Below are positions 43,571 to 51,893 of a stretch of 63,910 nt of DNA, one piece after another. Under the pieces are notes generated by a model. The model was given only the letters and a program-made list of their open reading frames with translations. It was not told the origin of the DNA and searched no databases. A program made the translations under genes and the position numbers. Positions within the stretch are counted from its first letter, which is position 1. Every line of letters begins with the position of its first letter. The DNA lies in the NCBI GenBank assembly GCA_017302255.1, contig JAFLDV010000025.1, positions 1-63,910 of the forward strand, written 5' to 3'. This DNA is from Gammaproteobacteria bacterium (lineage in GTDB: Bacteria; Pseudomonadota; Gammaproteobacteria; Enterobacterales; Alteromonadaceae).

Positions 43571-43595
43571 CCACTCATTCATTCAAGGATTTACC

Positions 43596-44882
43596 ATGAC
43601 TTTATCAGAACAAATGTTTAGCCGCGCCCAACAGACCATTCCTGGCGGCGTAAACTCTCCAGTCCGCGCATTTAAAAGCGTTGGTGGCACGCCGGTATTT
43701 ATCGCCCGCGCCGACGGTGCCTACATTTACGATGTCGATGGCAAAGCTTATATCGATTACGTTGGTTCTTGGGGACCAATGCTGTTGGGACACAACCATC
43801 CAGCGATCCGTCAGGCTGTTATAAGTGCCGCCGAAAATGGCTTAAGCTTTGGTGCGCCATGTCCGGCTGAAATCGAAATGGCAGAGCTAGTGTCGAAATT
43901 AGTGCCTTCGATGGAAATGCTGCGCATGGTTAGCTCTGGTACTGAAGCAACCATGAGCGCCATTCGGCTGGCTCGTGGTTATACCGGTCGCAATACCATT
44001 GTAAAATTTGAAGGCTGCTACCATGGGCATGCAGACTCATTACTGGTTAAAGCGGGCTCTGGTGCTTTGACTTTAGGCGTACCAAATTCACCTGGCGTAC
44101 CGGCTGATTTTGCCAAATACACCCTGACCTGTGAATTTAACAACCTAACGGAACTTACCGAGATTTTTGCCCAACATGGTAACGATATTGCGTGCATCAT
44201 CGTCGAACCTGTTGCCGGCAACATGAACTGTATCCCACCGGCGCCAGGCTTTCTTGAAGGATTGCGTGCACTTTGTGATGAGCATGGTGCTGTGCTGATT
44301 TTCGATGAAGTTATGACGGGCTTTCGTGTCGCCTTAGGCGGCGCACAAAGTTATTACGGCATCAAACCTGATTTAACGACGCTGGGCAAAATTATTGGTG
44401 GCGGCATGCCGGTTGGCGCTTTTGGCGGCAAACGAGAAATCATGCAACATATTGCGCCATTAGGCCCTGTTTACCAAGCCGGTACACTATCGGGTAACCC
44501 AGTCGCGATGGCCGCAGGTTTAGCCGCGCTGACTGAAATCAGCAAAGCTGGCGTCTATGAAGCATTAACTGCGAAAACGACTGCCTTATTAGCAGGTTTA
44601 CAAGCAGCGGCCGATAAAGCCGGAGTGCCATTTACCACCAATCAAGTGGGTGGGATGTTTGGTTTGTTCTTTACTGAACAGCGCCAAGTCAACAGCTATA
44701 AGCAAGCGACCATGTGTAACATCGAGTCGTTTAAACGCTTCTTCCATCTAATGCTGGCCGAGGGCGTCTATTTGGCGCCATCAGCTTATGAAGCTGGATT
44801 CTTATCTTTAGCACATTCAGAGCAAGATTTGGCTGCTACCATCGCTGCTGCCGAACGAGCCTTTGCTGAATTGGCAAAATAA
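43596..44882 (+). CDS. hemL: Glutamate-1-semialdehyde 2,1-aminomutase
   Basis: This PLP enzyme makes 5-aminolevulinate from glutamate-1-semialdehyde, entering heme synthesis. The 428-residue product starts [26 protein letters not shown], which fixes the ATG at 43596. The PLP lysine is in [19 protein letters not shown] (about residue 265). A longer frame from 43503 overlaps pyrB and is rejected. It begins 25 bases after pyrB. Confidence 0.96.
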
Positions 44883-44921: not shown

Positions 44922-47033
44922 CTAGTGCTCCGAGATGGGCATCGCCTGTAACCGCACCACTTCTGTTTCCTGTGATCGACGTTGCAACAGATACAGTGCC
45001 TTTGGCTCAGCCGTGACGTACAGGGCTTCTGGCTTAAGTGTACTTGGCAGTGCCTCCGACTTAGTGGTGTTGGTCAACCAATCAAATTGTTGTAAATGGT
45101 GATTGGCGTCAACCCAATAGATTGCCTGATCATTCGCTCCCCACAAATCTGCTTGAGTACTTCGCCAATCAATATCAATTGGCAGTGGTTGCACTTTTGC
45201 ATTCTCCAGAAAATAACGCTGTAATTTGCTGTTATTGTGGGATTGCAGAACTAAAGACTTGTTCGGGCCACAAACTAAATCCACCGCATCCTCAACCAGT
45301 CTGACTGCAGCGCTTTGTTTTAATTGATAAAGGCCCCAGCCACTGTCGGTTTGTTCTGTCCAAAACCATTGTCCATGGCAGTTCGCATAGCGCCGACTAG
45401 TGCCGCTAGACCAAGCAGTCAGTGATAACTCGCCAGTGCCCAAATCGACTTGCATCAATTGCTGATCGACAACTGCGAATAGATTTTGCTCCTGCCAAAT
45501 GAGTTGGTTAATGCTGACTGCTGTTTTAAATTTAGTGAGTTGTCGTAGATGGCCATCGGCATAACGCCAGATCTGAGGTAGTCCAGAGCGCGTGGACAAA
45601 AACACGCCGTCCCCGGCAAATAACCAATCATCACGATTACTGGTTAACCACTGTGGGACACTGAGTTCTGCGTGGCGTCCACCGCTATCCTGCTGAAAAG
45701 GCACCAAATCAAGCGCAGGATTTTGTTGAACAATCCCTAATAAGGTATCGCCTATTCTCCGCATATCAGCAAACAGACCCGCGTGAGTATTGAGCGCCAT
45801 TAGCCGCTGCCCGGCTAAGTTATAGAGCTGCAATTTCTCTAAACCACTGAGCAACAAAGTGTCCTTATCCCACCAACTGATGGATTGGATTTCCATAGCG
45901 AATTTGGCAGATAACCTTGGTTGATCTGCATCCTGCTTCCAAACAAATAAGTGGTAACTTTGCTGATATTCCTGCACCAGCAAATAAAGCTGATGGTTTT
46001 GTACCAATAACTGCTTGGGTTGACGAAAGACACCTGGCAGGGTCAGCAGCAATTTCTGTTGCTGTTGCGTTAGCCCCCACAGTTGAGTTTCTCCTGCAAC
46101 TTGATCAAGCCAAAATAACTCGTGATCTTTGGCAATAAGCCCTTTGCTGACGAATTGTTGGCAAGTCGCTATTTGCTTAGTCTGGTCCGGTGCGTCAGGG
46201 TCTTGCAAAAAGACTCCACAAGTTTGGGCTCGGACTGCCGTAAACACTAGCTTGTTGTCGAACCAATTGAGTTGTCCAACCTGCTCAAAACCTGCAGCTA
46301 ATTGGATCTTGCGATGACTTTGTGTTTCATGACGAATTAATCGCCATTCAGCACTACCTTCCGAGCGATACCAATAAAACCAATGTTGCCGATCAGCACT
46401 TTCCACTGGTTCAATTTCTTCACCAGGCAGCGCACTGATATTAATCTGATAGGGAAAACTAGGAATATATGCTTCGCGACCCAAGCGCCACAGCAGGAAC
46501 ACAAAAACAATACATAGAATCGCGACGGCACTGACGCTAATACACAAATATCGCAAAGTTGCAAAACGCTGGCGACTGCGGGATTCAACAATATCTACCA
46601 GCAAATTATTGACTGTTTCGGTATTGTCTTCTGCTGTAGTTGCCATTGGTTGCGGTTCAACGGTCTCTTGCGCCACCGATTCGGTAACCGTCTGTTCCGC
46701 TAAAGTCTCAACTTTGGCTATCCAGCAATATCCTTTGCGGGAATGAGTTTCGATAAACAATGGAGGCTTGCTTTGATCTTGGAGCAATTTTCGTAGGGTA
46801 GCGACCGCGCGCATCAGGGCCGCGTCAGTACCTTGATCTGTGCCCCAGACACTATTGAGGATGTGTTCTTTAGCAACAATTTGCTCAGGATTCTGCAGAA
46901 AAAAATTGAGCAGTGAATGTAGTCGTGGCTCAAGGACAATGGCATCGCCAGAGCCATCGTAACGGCACAAGGTTCCACTTTTCGGCGCATATTGCCAATG
47001 TAAGATTTTAAGCCATGGTTCGGCGTAAAGCAT
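44922..47033 (-). CDS. Membrane-bound winged-helix regulator with beta-propeller (CadC-like)
   Basis: This 703-residue protein has an N-terminal OmpR-type winged helix (residues 1-105, LLNFFLQNPEQIVAKEHILNSVWG...RKGYCWI), a flexible linker, a transmembrane helix at about 162-183, and a large periplasmic region of repeated beta blades of TolB/PD40 type. This layout is CadC-like: direct DNA binding by a membrane sensor. It is paralogous to the protein at 47422. The 47137 peptide lies between them. Confidence 0.88.
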   Translation of the reverse strand: MLYAEPWLKILHWQYAPKSGTLCRYDGSGDAIVLEPRLHSLLNFFLQNPEQIVAKEHILNSVWGTDQGTDAALMRAVATLRKLLQDQSKPPLFIETHSRKGYCWIAKVETLAEQTVTESVAQETVEPQPMATTAEDNTETVNNLLVDIVESRSRQRFATLRYLCISVSAVAILCIVFVFLLWRLGREAYIPSFPYQINISALPGEEIEPVESADRQHWFYWYRSEGSAEWRLIRHETQSHRKIQLAAGFEQVGQLNWFDNKLVFTAVRAQTCGVFLQDPDAPDQTKQIATCQQFVSKGLIAKDHELFWLDQVAGETQLWGLTQQQQKLLLTLPGVFRQPKQLLVQNHQLYLLVQEYQQSYHLFVWKQDADQPRLSAKFAMEIQSISWWDKDTLLLSGLEKLQLYNLAGQRLMALNTHAGLFADMRRIGDTLLGIVQQNPALDLVPFQQDSGGRHAELSVPQWLTSNRDDWLFAGDGVFLSTRSGLPQIWRYADGHLRQLTKFKTAVSINQLIWQEQNLFAVVDQQLMQVDLGTGELSLTAWSSGTSRRYANCHGQWFWTEQTDSGWGLYQLKQSAAVRLVEDAVDLVCGPNKSLVLQSHNNSKLQRYFLENAKVQPLPIDIDWRSTQADLWGANDQAIYWVDANHHLQQFDWLTNTTKSEALPSTLKPEALYVTAEPKALYLLQRRSQETEVVRLQAMPISEH

Positions 47034-47136
47034 ATCTGCCTCCCCGTTACAACGTGAAGGCAGTATACATGATTTTTACTTATTTGAAGACCGAACCTAA
47101 AACGGCAAAATTTAGCGCAGTTTACCGAACAAGTAC

Positions 47137-47337
47137 TTAGTTAATGACGATACAGTGTGGCCACATCCAGCACTCACCAGTGCCGTCTTCACCGTTAGTT
47201 GGCGGAGTGGTAGTAGTGGTTGTCGTTGTCGGTGCTGTAGTTTCTGGTTTAGTCGTCTCAGCTGCATTAACACCAACAGCAAATAAAGTGATAAGAGCTA
47301 AAGTAGATGCTGTGTTAATTAATTTATTGTTTTTCAT
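47137..47337 (-). CDS. Small secreted Thr-rich peptide
   Basis: This 66-residue product has a signal peptide (residues 1-25, cleavage about VNA-AE), a segment with eight consecutive Thr (TAPTTTTTTTTPP), and a short tail GTGECWMWPHCIVIN with two Cys separated by four residues. A good AAGGAAG ribosome binding site precedes the ATG at 47335-47337. Both flanking genes are CadC-like regulators on the same strand. The mature tail could be a disulfide-linked peptide signal, but no family is recognised. Confidence 0.7.
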   Translation of the reverse strand: MKNNKLINTASTLALITLFAVGVNAAETTKPETTAPTTTTTTTTPPTNGEDGTGECWMWPHCIVIN

Positions 47338-47421
47338 TTTAATGTCTTCCTTTTAGGTTAGCTACACCTCTATATGGCTACAACATTTGAATTAATACCT
47401 TATGAAAACTTGATAAAGCTA

Positions 47422-49614
47422 TTATAAAGTTTGTTTCGAAAATACTAACTCAGCGATATCAATATCACCGGTTTTGCCGTCATCCTGTAAAATAAACATT
47501 TCATCAGTACTGACCGAAAATCGACGCGCTAATTTCGGATGAATAATCCCAGTTTTGTTGATGGTTTTACTGACTAAATCATAACTATAAATTTCGTATT
47601 GTTTGGATTCGTTTGAATTTAAGAAATAAATCGCTGACTTTCGCAACACTAAAGAAGGGGAAACAAAGTCTCCTTGTGCCGGGACTGGCAGCTGTGTGAT
47701 CTCAGAGTTATCTCTAAATTTAATGCGGAGCTGTTTATCTTCAGTGTTGCGCCAAACTTGGTAGTCGCCGTCTGGGCTTTCTCGGAAATAATCCATATCA
47801 ACCGCGAAGGTTTTTTGGGTTAGCGAATCCCGGTCCATGGCAATAATTTTCCAGCGGCCTTGTTCAGATGCAGAAAAATAAATCGTTTTACTATCATAGC
47901 TCCAGCTTGGATCCCGACTATTTTGTCCATCCAGACTTAATAACACCGGCGATGTCTGCTCAGACAGCAACCACACTGAAGTGCCAACAAGCACTAGCAA
48001 AGACTTGCCATCAGGAGAAAACTCAAGCGCTTTCGGGCTAAAATCACCAGAAAAACGACTGATTTGCTTTTGCCGGCCATCTTTGAAATACAGCCATACT
48101 TGCTGCACTCCAGAGCGGTTCGACATGACTGCGGTTGGTCCATCGGCTACTGGATTTAGCTCTAGCATGCCTTCACCACGACTAGCTTGTTGCATTATTT
48201 CATCGACAGCTTGATTGTTCTTTAGCGGGTTGTTGATACGCCGAATACTGCTTTGCCATAATTTGCCAACGCTAGCGAAAATTCGTCCTTTACTACTGAT
48301 GATTACTTCACCAGCTTTATTATCGGTGTAAGCAAATACCTTCGCCTTTTTGGTATGGACATCTACTACCGACAATTCATTATTACCCGAAGAAAACAAA
48401 ATTTCGTCAATGTTGGGCATCCAAGCAACCTGACCTGGGTATATTCCTTGGGGCTGAATAAGCATTTGGATAGAGCGATCTTGAAAGTTCATCATCCATA
48501 TCTGACCTGCAGCGCCAGCAACATCTCGGATAAAGGCTAAGTAATTACCATCGTGTGAAAATGCGGCAGCAAAATCGCCGATACTGGTTTCCGGTGGCAT
48601 GGTTAACTGCTCAATCTTGCCGCCATCCATTGGATAAAGCATCAATGCAATATTGTTAGACTTATCTTGCCAGTCTGGATACACCAAATAGCGGCCATCT
48701 GGCGACCAACTCATCCGTGCGCCCATACTATTGGCGCCGCATTTTGTCAGCAGATCATCAGATTGCACCTTAAATTGAACATCAAATCTCAGCAATCTTA
48801 TTTCGCAACTCACTTTTCGCTTTAGTTGCTGATAAGCCAGTGCATTGCCATTCGGATGCCAAATTGGTCCAATTAAATTGCTATTTTCAGATGTTTTAAT
48901 GACCTGTTTTTCAAGAGTTTCCACATCTTGTACAATCAACGACGAAGAGCTGTGGATATCGATCATATGGCTGTAGGCTAAATAACGGCCGTCTGCTGAC
49001 GTTGAATGATAAAACTCCAAACCATCCATCGAAGAGACAGGATCTAGACGACCAAACGGAATTTCTTGCTCAAGCTGAGCTGTCGAGCCCCAATTCAACC
49101 AGCCAAAGTAAATAAGGCTACAACTGAAAACAGCAGCAACAGCGCTCCAAAGGACATAGGAAGTGACAGCTCGTTTTGGAACCATCGCAGGCACTTGGTC
49201 GATTGCCGACTCAGTGTCATCATCGACAGTCTCTTCAAAAACAGCAGGTTGCTCCACTGCTGGAGCGCCAACCCGAACCACTGAAGCGACAAAGCGAAAA
49301 CCACGTTTAGGGATGGTTTCAATATAAGTTGGCTCACGGCTGTCATCACCAAGCTCAACCCTAAGTACTCGGATCACCCGTGAAATTCGACCGTCAGAGA
49401 CATCACGCACGCCCCAGACATTACTGAGTAACTCATCGCGCGTAATTAAGCGCCCCGGATTTTGCATGAAGTAATTGAATGCTTTTTGACACAAATTATC
49501 GAGCTCAGCAGTCTGGACAATTTCCCCTGTTTCAGAAAGTTTGACCAGTTTGTCTTGTTGCGGCAAATACCACCAATCACCGACTTTTAGTTGTTGTTCT
49601 GGTTTGGTTGACAT
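47422..49614 (-). CDS. Membrane-bound winged-helix regulator with beta-propeller, paralogue
   Basis: This 730-residue protein has the same order as the one at 44922: winged helix (residues 1-110, LITRDELLSNVWGVRDVSDGRISRVIRVLR...PKRGFRFV), linker, transmembrane helix near 150-170, then PD40/TolB blades (repeated SPDGRYLVYPDW, SHDGNYLAFIRD, SPDGKSLLVL). The start is the ATG at 49612-49614. The two paralogues differ considerably, so the duplication is not recent. Confidence 0.9.
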   Translation of the reverse strand: MSTKPEQQLKVGDWWYLPQQDKLVKLSETGEIVQTAELDNLCQKAFNYFMQNPGRLITRDELLSNVWGVRDVSDGRISRVIRVLRVELGDDSREPTYIETIPKRGFRFVASVVRVGAPAVEQPAVFEETVDDDTESAIDQVPAMVPKRAVTSYVLWSAVAAVFSCSLIYFGWLNWGSTAQLEQEIPFGRLDPVSSMDGLEFYHSTSADGRYLAYSHMIDIHSSSSLIVQDVETLEKQVIKTSENSNLIGPIWHPNGNALAYQQLKRKVSCEIRLLRFDVQFKVQSDDLLTKCGANSMGARMSWSPDGRYLVYPDWQDKSNNIALMLYPMDGGKIEQLTMPPETSIGDFAAAFSHDGNYLAFIRDVAGAAGQIWMMNFQDRSIQMLIQPQGIYPGQVAWMPNIDEILFSSGNNELSVVDVHTKKAKVFAYTDNKAGEVIISSKGRIFASVGKLWQSSIRRINNPLKNNQAVDEIMQQASRGEGMLELNPVADGPTAVMSNRSGVQQVWLYFKDGRQKQISRFSGDFSPKALEFSPDGKSLLVLVGTSVWLLSEQTSPVLLSLDGQNSRDPSWSYDSKTIYFSASEQGRWKIIAMDRDSLTQKTFAVDMDYFRESPDGDYQVWRNTEDKQLRIKFRDNSEITQLPVPAQGDFVSPSLVLRKSAIYFLNSNESKQYEIYSYDLVSKTINKTGIIHPKLARRFSVSTDEMFILQDDGKTGDIDIAELVFSKQTL

Positions 49615-49655: not shown

Positions 49656-51893
49656 TCAATCACAATTTTCCTGAACAGGCATTTCACCCCAAATCACTGG
49701 CAATAACAATACGTTAACGCAAGAATCTTGCACAAAATGGCCGGAATTCGACGAAATGCTTTGACGCCTAACGTTTTCCGGAACAGCACGAAACAATGAG
49801 TTCGGACTGTTGTGCTTAAAATAATTAACAAATACTGGCAAAGCACCGCTACCGCCAGTTAAACCAATTGCTTGATTGTCATCGCGGCCAAGCCAAATTG
49901 TCAGGCCAGTTTCATGGTCAAACCCACTAAACCAGCTGTCACGATAATCACTAGAGGTACCAGTTTTACCGGCAAATCGACTGCCAGGAAACTGAGTCGA
50001 TAGTATTTGTGCAGTGCCTGTTTGGGTCGATTGCTGCATCGCGTACTGCAACAAATATGCAGCAGATACCTGGAAGCGAGGCTCCGCTTTAACCTTGCGT
50101 TGATAGATGACTCGCCCATCAGCAGCACCTATGGCTTCAATAGCCGCTAGTGGTTTGTACTGCCCTTTATTGGCGATGGTTTGATACATTTGCGCAACTT
50201 CCAGCGGACTCATTTCTACGGCACCGAGTAAAGATGAAGGTTGTAGATGGAATTCACGGCTTACACCCAACTTTTCAATACTTTGCGCTACTGCAGGCAA
50301 CCCAAGTTGCAAGCCAAGGCGGATGGTCGGAATGTTCAGTGATTGGCTCAACGCTTCGACGATAGGCACATTGCCACGGAATTTTTTATCATAGTTGTGC
50401 GGCTGCCAGTTTTTGCTGCCGCTGCGCAGGCTTAAAGGCGTATCGGCGAGTACAGAACCTAGACTATACCGCGCAGGTTGAGCCAATGCGGTCAGATAGA
50501 CCACTGGTTTGATGATACTGCCGATTTGCCGGCGAGCCGAAATTGCTCGGTTATAGCCAGCAAAACTGGTGTTGCGACCGCCAACAATAGCTTTTAAACC
50601 ACCCTGTTGATAGTCAGTCGCCACTACCGCTACTTCTATTTTTTCGTCGAGTTTGTTTAAGCGCTCAGCGACTGCTTGCTCCGCAGCAAGTTGTGCCATC
50701 GGATCTAAATAGGTGAAAACCCGCAGCCCCTCTTGCATCTGCAGCGGATCTGTCACTAACTCGCGCAGTTCTTGGCGAACCTTGTCGATATAAGCTGGGT
50801 ATTTGCCTTTTAAATGCTGCCCAATCGGGATAACGTCTAGCGGTTGCTCCAATGCGGCTTTTGTTTGCTCACCGTCAAGTAAGCCATGCTCTTCCATCAA
50901 ATGCAGAATTAAATCGCGCCGCTGAGCTGCGCGCTCAGGAAAGCGACGCGGATCGTAGTACGACGGGCCTTTGATGATGGCAATCAACAAGGCATATTCG
51001 TGTGGACGCAATTCCGCCAGCGGCTTACCGAAATACAATTTGCTGCCAAGACCCAACCCATGCACCGGATTGTCTTTGAATTGGCCGATAAAAATCTCAT
51101 TAAAATAAGCTTCGAGAATTTGGTCTTTGCTGTAACGATAATCTAAAACCAGAGCAATCAGCGCTTCATTGACTTTGCGCACCATGGTTCGCTCTTGATT
51201 GGTATACATATTTTTTGCGAGCTGCTGAGTTAATGTCGAGCCCCCCTGCACTGTTTGACCCGCTTGTAAGTTCGTGATGAGTGCCCGCAGCACCGACAAT
51301 GGCGACACACCATGGTGGCTATAAAAATCGCGGTCTTCGACTAACAATAAAGTCTCGCGAATAGTCACTGGTACTTGTTTTAACTGCACTAACTCGCGGT
51401 CTTCTTGTTCAGCAGTGACCAAGTGCTGCAACAACTGCGGTTCCATTTTGGCTTTGGCCAAAGCCTTGCCTGATTTTTGTAAGCCCTGAACAAAATCTCC
51501 AGCGAATTCTACGGTAAATAACGAAGCGGCTTGCGCACCGTCGGCAAATTCGAAAGTTCGGCGATAAACATGGACTTTTGGGCCATCGACTAAATATTGG
51601 CCAGGACCATTGAGGCGAGGATCCACTCGATACTGCAACCGTTTCAGCTCGTCGACAAATTGCGTTTGCGATAGATGGACGCCGGGCGCCAGGTGCAACA
51701 CACGCGCATACAATTGCGCTGGCACTTGCCATTTTTGCCCGGAAAATAAAGTGGTGATTTTGCTGTCTAAATAGATGAAATAAATCAGTAGGGTCAGAAA
51801 AACGACCATCGCTGATTTTAAGAAAAACCATAAAACAGAACGCTGAAATGGCGTTAGTCCGGATTTTTTTGTTGTTTTACGGCGCACGGTCAT
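49656..51893 (-). CDS. mrcB: Penicillin-binding protein 1B
   Basis: This bifunctional enzyme polymerises and cross-links peptidoglycan. The 745-residue protein has a transmembrane helix (residues 19-43), a UB2H-like region, a glycosyltransferase with EDRDFYSHHGVS and GGSTLTQQLAKN, and a transpeptidase with SxxK (GSIIK), SxN (SQSLN) and KTG (AGKTGTSSDYRDSWF). It overlaps hrpB by 4 bases (ATGA). Confidence 0.96.
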   Translation of the reverse strand: MTVRRKTTKKSGLTPFQRSVLWFFLKSAMVVFLTLLIYFIYLDSKITTLFSGQKWQVPAQLYARVLHLAPGVHLSQTQFVDELKRLQYRVDPRLNGPGQYLVDGPKVHVYRRTFEFADGAQAASLFTVEFAGDFVQGLQKSGKALAKAKMEPQLLQHLVTAEQEDRELVQLKQVPVTIRETLLLVEDRDFYSHHGVSPLSVLRALITNLQAGQTVQGGSTLTQQLAKNMYTNQERTMVRKVNEALIALVLDYRYSKDQILEAYFNEIFIGQFKDNPVHGLGLGSKLYFGKPLAELRPHEYALLIAIIKGPSYYDPRRFPERAAQRRDLILHLMEEHGLLDGEQTKAALEQPLDVIPIGQHLKGKYPAYIDKVRQELRELVTDPLQMQEGLRVFTYLDPMAQLAAEQAVAERLNKLDEKIEVAVVATDYQQGGLKAIVGGRNTSFAGYNRAISARRQIGSIIKPVVYLTALAQPARYSLGSVLADTPLSLRSGSKNWQPHNYDKKFRGNVPIVEALSQSLNIPTIRLGLQLGLPAVAQSIEKLGVSREFHLQPSSLLGAVEMSPLEVAQMYQTIANKGQYKPLAAIEAIGAADGRVIYQRKVKAEPRFQVSAAYLLQYAMQQSTQTGTAQILSTQFPGSRFAGKTGTSSDYRDSWFSGFDHETGLTIWLGRDDNQAIGLTGGSGALPVFVNYFKHNSPNSLFRAVPENVRRQSISSNSGHFVQDSCVNVLLLPVIWGEMPVQENCD

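Follow-up and report, generated by a model that had tools for sequence, protein, structure and literature searches.

Co-variation of a predicted exported peptide with the propellers of an adjoining membrane regulator suggests a hormone-and-receptor pair in a group of water bacteria

Polymorphic cassettes of a peptide and its receptor are characteristic of communication among Gram-positive bacteria. In the agr (AIP/AgrC) and ComX/ComP cassettes a short exported precursor bears a variable core that occurs as lineage-specific alleles, and the peptide and the outer domain of its receptor are hypervariable together while the neighbouring genes are conserved. The same genetic signature is found in a Gram-negative group at the locus described here, which lies in a window of 63,910 nucleotides (the whole stretch of DNA analysed; contig JAFLDV010000025.1, assembly GCA_017302255.1) from a gammaproteobacterium of the genus Rheinheimera. 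The locus comprises a gene for a 66-residue peptide, predicted to be exported, between the genes of two predicted transmembrane transcription factors, here called reg1 and reg2. The peptide tracks the propellers of reg1 rather than reg2, the flanking genes or the DNA-binding head of reg1 itself, and this co-variation suggests that the peptide and reg1 are a hormone-and-receptor pair in this group of water bacteria. A literature search, with most subscription papers outside its reach, returned no report of this locus.

The proposed receptor differs from those of agr and ComX in being a one-protein, propeller-bearing membrane transcription factor and not a histidine kinase with a response regulator; this block also has no AgrB- or ComQ-like enzyme, and its host is Gram-negative. 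ToxR/CadC-like regulators share with reg1 an N-terminal OmpR-type winged helix, a single transmembrane (TM) helix and a periplasmic sensor, whereas the sensor here is made of propellers and a co-varying exported peptide is encoded alongside. In ToxR/ToxS, TcpP/TcpH and VtrA/VtrC, likewise, the regulator in the membrane works with a small protein that acts on the periplasmic side; the partner here is instead a Cys-loop precursor of 58-97 aa that diversifies with its receptor, not a folded periplasmic domain of that family, and the window peptide had no Pfam match to a partner family of the ToxS/TcpH/VtrC type. The two regulators with DNA-binding heads and the 66-residue peptide between them, first proposed in a preliminary description of the window, were borne out as three genes, the heads by Pfam and the propellers by AlphaFold2 models. 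The main features are the following:

47422-49614, minus strand: reg1, 730 aa; open reading frame (ORF) with PF00486 and PD40 matches and an AlphaFold2 model; predicted transmembrane transcription factor and proposed peptide receptor.
47390-47417, minus strand: putative operator TTTATC-N5-TTCATA-N5-TTAATT, with hexamers every 11 bp, in the gap that separates reg1 from the peptide gene.
47137-47337, minus strand: peptide gene, 66 aa; ORF with GGAAG, supported by conservation, a shuffle test and dN/dS; proposed ligand precursor.
44922-47033, minus strand: reg2, 703 aa; ORF with a PF00486 match and an AlphaFold2 model; second predicted transmembrane transcription factor.

Ten close pairs of loci were compared along the block, which is bordered by mrcB and hemL. 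Five pairs with differing cores (L061/L063, L053/L054, L111/L113, L059/L064 and L056/L062) show dips of identity in the reg1 propellers and the peptide, while mrcB, the reg1 head, reg2 and hemL remain higher; L051/L052 dips mostly in the peptide, three pairs with the same core have no dip, and in L098/L100 the cores differ, yet there is no clear dip in reg1. Across 18 non-overlapping pairs the median third-position difference was 0.41 for the reg1 propellers and 0.46 for the peptide, and 0.28 for mrcB, 0.23 for the reg1 head, 0.26 for both the reg2 head and the reg2 propellers, and 0.27 for hemL (missing in one pair). The reg1 propellers were more diverged than those of reg2 in 14 of the 18 pairs (Wilcoxon p 0.0005), and the excess divergence of the peptide correlated with that of the reg1 propellers (rho 0.57, p 0.014) and not with that of reg2 (rho -0.20), the corresponding values in 16 pairs being 0.56 and -0.06.

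Nearest neighbours gave a similar picture in the 45 of 52 block-carrying genomes that have the three genes in full and hemL on the same stretch, when peptides were scored on the core plus the next four residues and only those cases were counted in which the neighbour by reg1 propellers differed from that by another region. The peptide of the reg1-propeller neighbour was closer in 17 cases, farther in 2 and tied in 3 when set against reg2 propellers; the same counts were 19, 2 and 2 against the flanks, 25, 1 and 5 against the reg1 head, and 21, 1 and 4 against the reg2 head. On the core alone, reg1 propellers prevailed over reg2 propellers by 15 to 3, and with reciprocal pairs counted once the ratio on the fuller score was 11:2 (descriptive p 0.011). 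Among 23 genomes of a second genus-level group, which includes species named Rheinheimera and Arsukibacterium, the residue after the core requires four changes on the reg1-propeller tree, the minimum, five on the tree of its far half, eight on that of reg2 and seven on that of the reg1 head. Two loci, L092 and L095, share CPWWPAC-KDPE and have close reg1 propellers, while L092 is sister to L093 (CSFWPTC-RDPD) by reg2 and the flanks; the sisters L086 and L090 differ by 13% in their reg2 propellers and by 45% in their reg1 propellers, and their peptides differ. The preliminary description had the peptide sensed by periplasmic propellers; co-variation upholds the link for reg1, while the propellers of reg2 follow the peptide no better than hemL does (11 versus 7, p 0.24).

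Such a pattern could also arise if the reg1 propellers diverge fast for a reason of their own and the peptide, which adjoins reg1, hitch-hikes on the same exchanged DNA with no contact between the two; in one clade the reg2 head indeed shares part of the Mantel signal described below. The far half of the reg1 propellers, about 0.9-1.7 kb from the peptide, nevertheless tracks it better than the reg2 propellers at a similar distance (18:4; 13:4 with reciprocal pairs counted once, descriptive p 0.025) and better than the reg2 head only about 0.1-0.4 kb away (22:5, a weak comparison because the reg2 head is slow-evolving), and between the two halves there is little to choose (near 6, far 5). Hitch-hiking would also leave the identical doubled cores and the joint loss of the genes unexplained, and we regard it as improbable.

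In the gene of the window peptide, GGAAG precedes the ATG by 8 bases; the encoded N-terminus is hydrophobic and of export type, and the C-terminal end reads CWMWPHC-IVIN, so that the tail is C-x5-C and not C-x4-C as initially read; the poly-Thr linker also noted at that stage is present in the window peptide and is not common to the relatives compared. Orthologous ORFs of 58-97 aa start 79-125 nt past the reg1 stop in 51/51 loci (start codons hand-chosen). The distance from the end of the ORF to reg2 is 51-122 nt and varies with the start codon assumed for reg2. Of the orthologous gaps, 51/51 contain an export-type ORF bearing C-x5-7-C; among dinucleotide-shuffled gaps it turned up in 7 of 3060 and on the opposite strand in 1 of 51, at thresholds chosen with the peptides already known. 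The peptide ORF is not a chance frame, and secretion of the 66-residue peptide of the preliminary description is predicted, from a crude export-signal test that all 51 peptides pass. Only Met1 and the two Cys are invariant among the 51, Pro is retained in more than 90%, and the mean column identity of the precursors is 21%. The spacing is C-x5-C in 45 of the 51, with 6 or 7 residues between the Cys in the remainder; C-x(3,5)-P-x-C fits 49 and C-x-x-[WFYH]-P-x-C fits 43.

The core is doubled in nine genomes, and in all nine the two copies are identical in protein sequence, while cores vary among genomes; among the 63 core codons compared, 22 differences are silent and none is replacing. Copies that stay matched in this way suggest that the same partner reads both. 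For dN/dS, 16 pairs were used that had been picked by hand and overlap in part; one was saturated, and in the other 15 the peptide gave 0.08-0.74 (median 0.22), above the value of reg1 in 13. A small exported Cys peptide evolving faster than reg1 could be an antibacterial or competition peptide, with the regulators sensing rivals or damage. The block, however, holds no immunity gene or exporter, the regulators and peptide are retained and lost together, and the window peptide has no Pfam toxin match (best E 0.046, under that family's cut-off), so that we consider this role very doubtful. The window peptide likewise did not reach the 35-bit cut-off of the WGxxGxxG family (NF041742; 20.8 bits, E 4.3e-4). 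A lipoprotein was considered on account of a lipobox-like Ile/Leu-x-Ala-Cys seen by eye at the core in some lineages, and was rejected, as this lies far from the export helix and is absent from the window. A small nonpolar ending is common among the precursors (KLA, QLA, KAV, KAA; for example L086-L109) and, speculatively, could be a mark for a tail-specific protease.

The locus is real and acts as a unit, with the order mrcB-reg1-peptide-reg2-(hemL) seen in Rheinheimera, Arsukibacterium and Alkalimonas. In the window, mrcB, reg1, the 66-aa ORF and reg2 all lie on the minus strand and hemL is convergent after reg2. The two flanking genes are placed as follows, under names that we presume from their sequence families:

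49656-51893, minus strand: mrcB, presumably penicillin-binding protein 1b; tblastn synteny; conserved upstream neighbour outside the proposed circuit.
43593-44882, plus strand: hemL; tblastn synteny; conserved convergent neighbour outside the proposed circuit.

Matches to reg1 were found in 22/22 genomes of the window's genus, in 24/31 of the second group and in 5/6 of a third, Alkalimonas, whose sixth genome has a contig beginning at the peptide, with peptide and reg2 present. Loss of the peptide beside both regulators, which would have told against the preliminary description, was not observed: the peptide occurs in all 52 genomes carrying any part of the block, as does reg2, which directly follows the peptide in all but two. 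In one of these, G219, reg2 lies 5 kb further on, behind an inserted cassette, and in the other, G012, it is on a separate contig; at locus L112 reg2 is truncated by the contig end. The G219 insertion (L109:3694-6666) carries several ORFs; by eye, the first resembles a toxin and the second a propeller protein. In the seven second-group genomes lacking reg1, 63-753 bp separate the matches to mrcB and hemL, no reg2 was found genome-wide at E up to 1e-15, and no peptide was found between mrcB and hemL, the stretch to which the peptide search was confined; one 42-aa frame there has C-x5-7-C and no Met. A tree of the two flanking proteins requires two losses of the block.

Synteny was needed to find the peptides, because the window peptide as sole query placed just two relatives at the locus (E 0.0022 and 0.26). 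A profile of the 51 peptides, run on the 22 genomes of the window's genus, returned nothing off the locus below E 0.0025 and missed the locus in G018, and nothing was found in the viral contigs searched. The best 80 of 518 matches include 31 distant loci of propeller regulators, and none of the 24 of these that were examined had, in the 700 bp downstream, a small ORF of exported type with two Cys.

Both regulators carry a Trans_reg_C head (PF00486; E 1.6e-12 in reg1 and 1e-14 in reg2, both above the curated cut-off), and AlphaFold2 models have mean pLDDT of 86.1 for reg1 (49 orthologues) and 86.2 for reg2 (47 orthologues). In reg1 a winged-helix head (about 1-114) is followed by a disordered linker (117-149), a TM helix (150-178) and the propellers (about 186-726); the model of reg2 has a single long hydrophobic helix (148-188) and then the propeller part. 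The predicted topology of both is one TM helix followed by a periplasmic propeller domain, and their clear similarity to one another is limited to the head and the start of the remainder (25% over 226 aa, E 3e-19). The strand pattern, together with matches to double-propeller folds, leads us to read the C-terminal part of each as a tandem of two propellers. Tandem propellers of the Protein Data Bank (PDB) such as LRP5/6 and, for reg2 only, the outer domain of Bacteroides BT4673 are among the best fold matches, at a TM-score of about 0.25 over the whole chain and about 8-14% identity, most other top matches being unrelated WD40 proteins; some LRP6 entries hold disulfide-constrained peptides, which is an analogy of fold only. 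The best solved sequence relative of reg1 is the CadC head (5ju7, E 3.3e-10). By head and layout reg1 and reg2 are ToxR/CadC-like, as far as sequence can tell, yet they fall far under the CadC equivalog cut-off (NF007540, 400 bits for the whole protein), reg2 scoring 56.9 and reg1 46.8 bits in the N-terminal part only; neither has a Pfam match to a kinase or receiver domain at E up to 1. Across six close pairs the reg1 propellers were most variable at 256-305, which spans a Cys pair (270/292) invariant in 49/49, and 581-705; four Cys of reg2 (272, 291, 552 and 588) are invariant in 47/47.

Downstream of reg1, the expression TTT[AG]T-N7-[TC][CT][AG]T occurs 7-19 nt past the stop in 50 of 51 loci (the miss being L067) and in 2.9% of shuffles, the expression having been fitted to these same sequences. 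In 22 hand-chosen representatives the stretch resembles itself at 11 bp (z 6.5) and 22 bp (z 5.2) relative to dinucleotide shuffles, or z 6.8 and 5.3 with single-base shuffles, and no other tested period rises above z 2. PhoB-type heads bind direct repeats about 11 bp apart. The CadC head resembles that of PhoB, while CadC sites are described as TTAxxxxT in head-to-head arrangement (PMC5430869), so that direct repeats at this locus would be PhoB-like.

Closer to reg2, inspection by eye of 49 aligned gaps showed in most a conserved TATAAT/TATACT box and then a GC-rich hairpin ending near the start codon, which leave little space for a usual ribosome site. In the window this element is:

47036-47067, minus strand: promoter-like box TATACT (47067-47062), overlapping a hairpin (47063-47058/47041-47036); by eye.

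On this evidence reg2 seems to have its own promoter. An exported ORF ending 51-122 nt upstream of reg2 might have been a regulatory leader or arrest peptide of the SecM/VemP kind, controlling translation of reg2. Besides the apparent promoter, the distance of the last core from the stop (3 to 37 residues), the doubling of the core in nine genomes and the fact that core identity follows reg1 and not reg2 all speak against such a leader, which we consider extremely improbable.

Drawing together the gene unit, its conservation and co-loss, the operator-like element and the co-variation with the reg1 propellers, we lean, by no wide measure, towards the three genes being a peptide-sensing switch in which reg1 senses the peptide and controls its gene. 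The precursor would be exported by Sec; in the periplasm its Cys-x5-Cys core would close as a disulfide loop, to be released wholly or in part. As a membrane-bound transcription factor of the ToxR/CadC-like kind, reg1 would receive this loop as the matched ligand of its periplasmic propellers. Binding would alter the state of reg1, and, since its winged-helix heads would sit on the direct repeats of 11 bp that closely precede the peptide gene, the peptide is proposed to control its own production. Lineages would hold different ligand and receptor alleles that move together, like pherotypes. A conserved partner regulator, reg2 would not set peptide specificity, and may be a partner head or output regulator. 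We infer the disulfide, the processing, the binding, which head binds the element, the direction of regulation and the release to neighbours.

Several results weigh against this switch. The co-variation tests were devised along the way, and the p-values of the neighbour test are descriptive only because that test was devised after the neighbour table had been seen. Partial Mantel tests for the reg1 propellers (r 0.41, p 0.0004; r 0.19, p 0.016) fall to r 0.22 (p 0.03) and r 0.13 (p 0.07) with the reg2 head as covariate, and in one clade the reg2 head itself correlates with the peptide (r 0.39, p 0.0016). Differences between cores did not predict the ratio of reg1 to reg2 divergence in 17 greedy pairs (Mann-Whitney p 0.099, Spearman -0.03), the core CGWFPLC sits on two unrelated reg1 alleles, and groups by full core separate the trees little (3 changes for reg1 propellers, 4 for reg2). 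The linker and TM parts also evolve fast (third-position difference 0.44 in reg1 and 0.36 in reg2). An operator pattern fitted to the second group, which matched at the locus in 19 of its 24 block-carrying genomes, gave 15 off-locus matches in the 31 genomes of that group and 14 with the reversed pattern as control, and no regulon was found. The block contains no exporter or maturation enzyme, and there is no space for a processing enzyme between mrcB, reg1, peptide, reg2 and hemL in the window or the compared loci, the G219 insertion excepted. The divergence of peptide and receptor outer domain as allelic groups, by which agr and comQXPA are recognised, is nonetheless seen here, with the Mantel and pair-ratio tests weaker or negative.

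The chief alternative is that the peptide is a private periplasmic partner of reg1, a modulator or a redox or envelope sensor docking on the propellers in the manner of ToxS or a small connector, rather than a signal that passes from cell to cell. The block shows no outer-membrane exporter, periplasmic redox could by inference set the two-Cys core, the adjoining mrcB hints at the envelope, and the same co-variation with the reg1 propellers would result. Lineage-specific alleles that look as if exchanged like cassettes and identical tandem cores fit specificity between cells better, however, and almost all residues outside the core are free to change; a private partner is rather unlikely, though to be taken seriously.

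For the peptide-sensing switch in its fullest form, the prospect is a little short of even that it represents a new class of Gram-negative pheromone: a Cys-x2-aromatic-Pro-x-Cys hormone, exported by Sec and looped by a disulfide, that a membrane transcription factor with propellers reads directly, with no kinase or importer, and with pherotypes that split close relatives into separate communication groups. If true, a single protein would lead from an outside peptide to a promoter, a membrane transcription factor replacing the kinase, and the locus would offer a natural series of ligand and receptor pairs for tests of specificity as well as a possible type of ligand for orphan propeller-bearing ToxR-like regulators.

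In Algicola sagamiensis (L115), mrcB is followed by a relative of reg1 (26%) with no peptide or reg2 adjoining, an arrangement that is possibly the ancestral state, and a weak relative of reg2 (22%) lies elsewhere in the genome.

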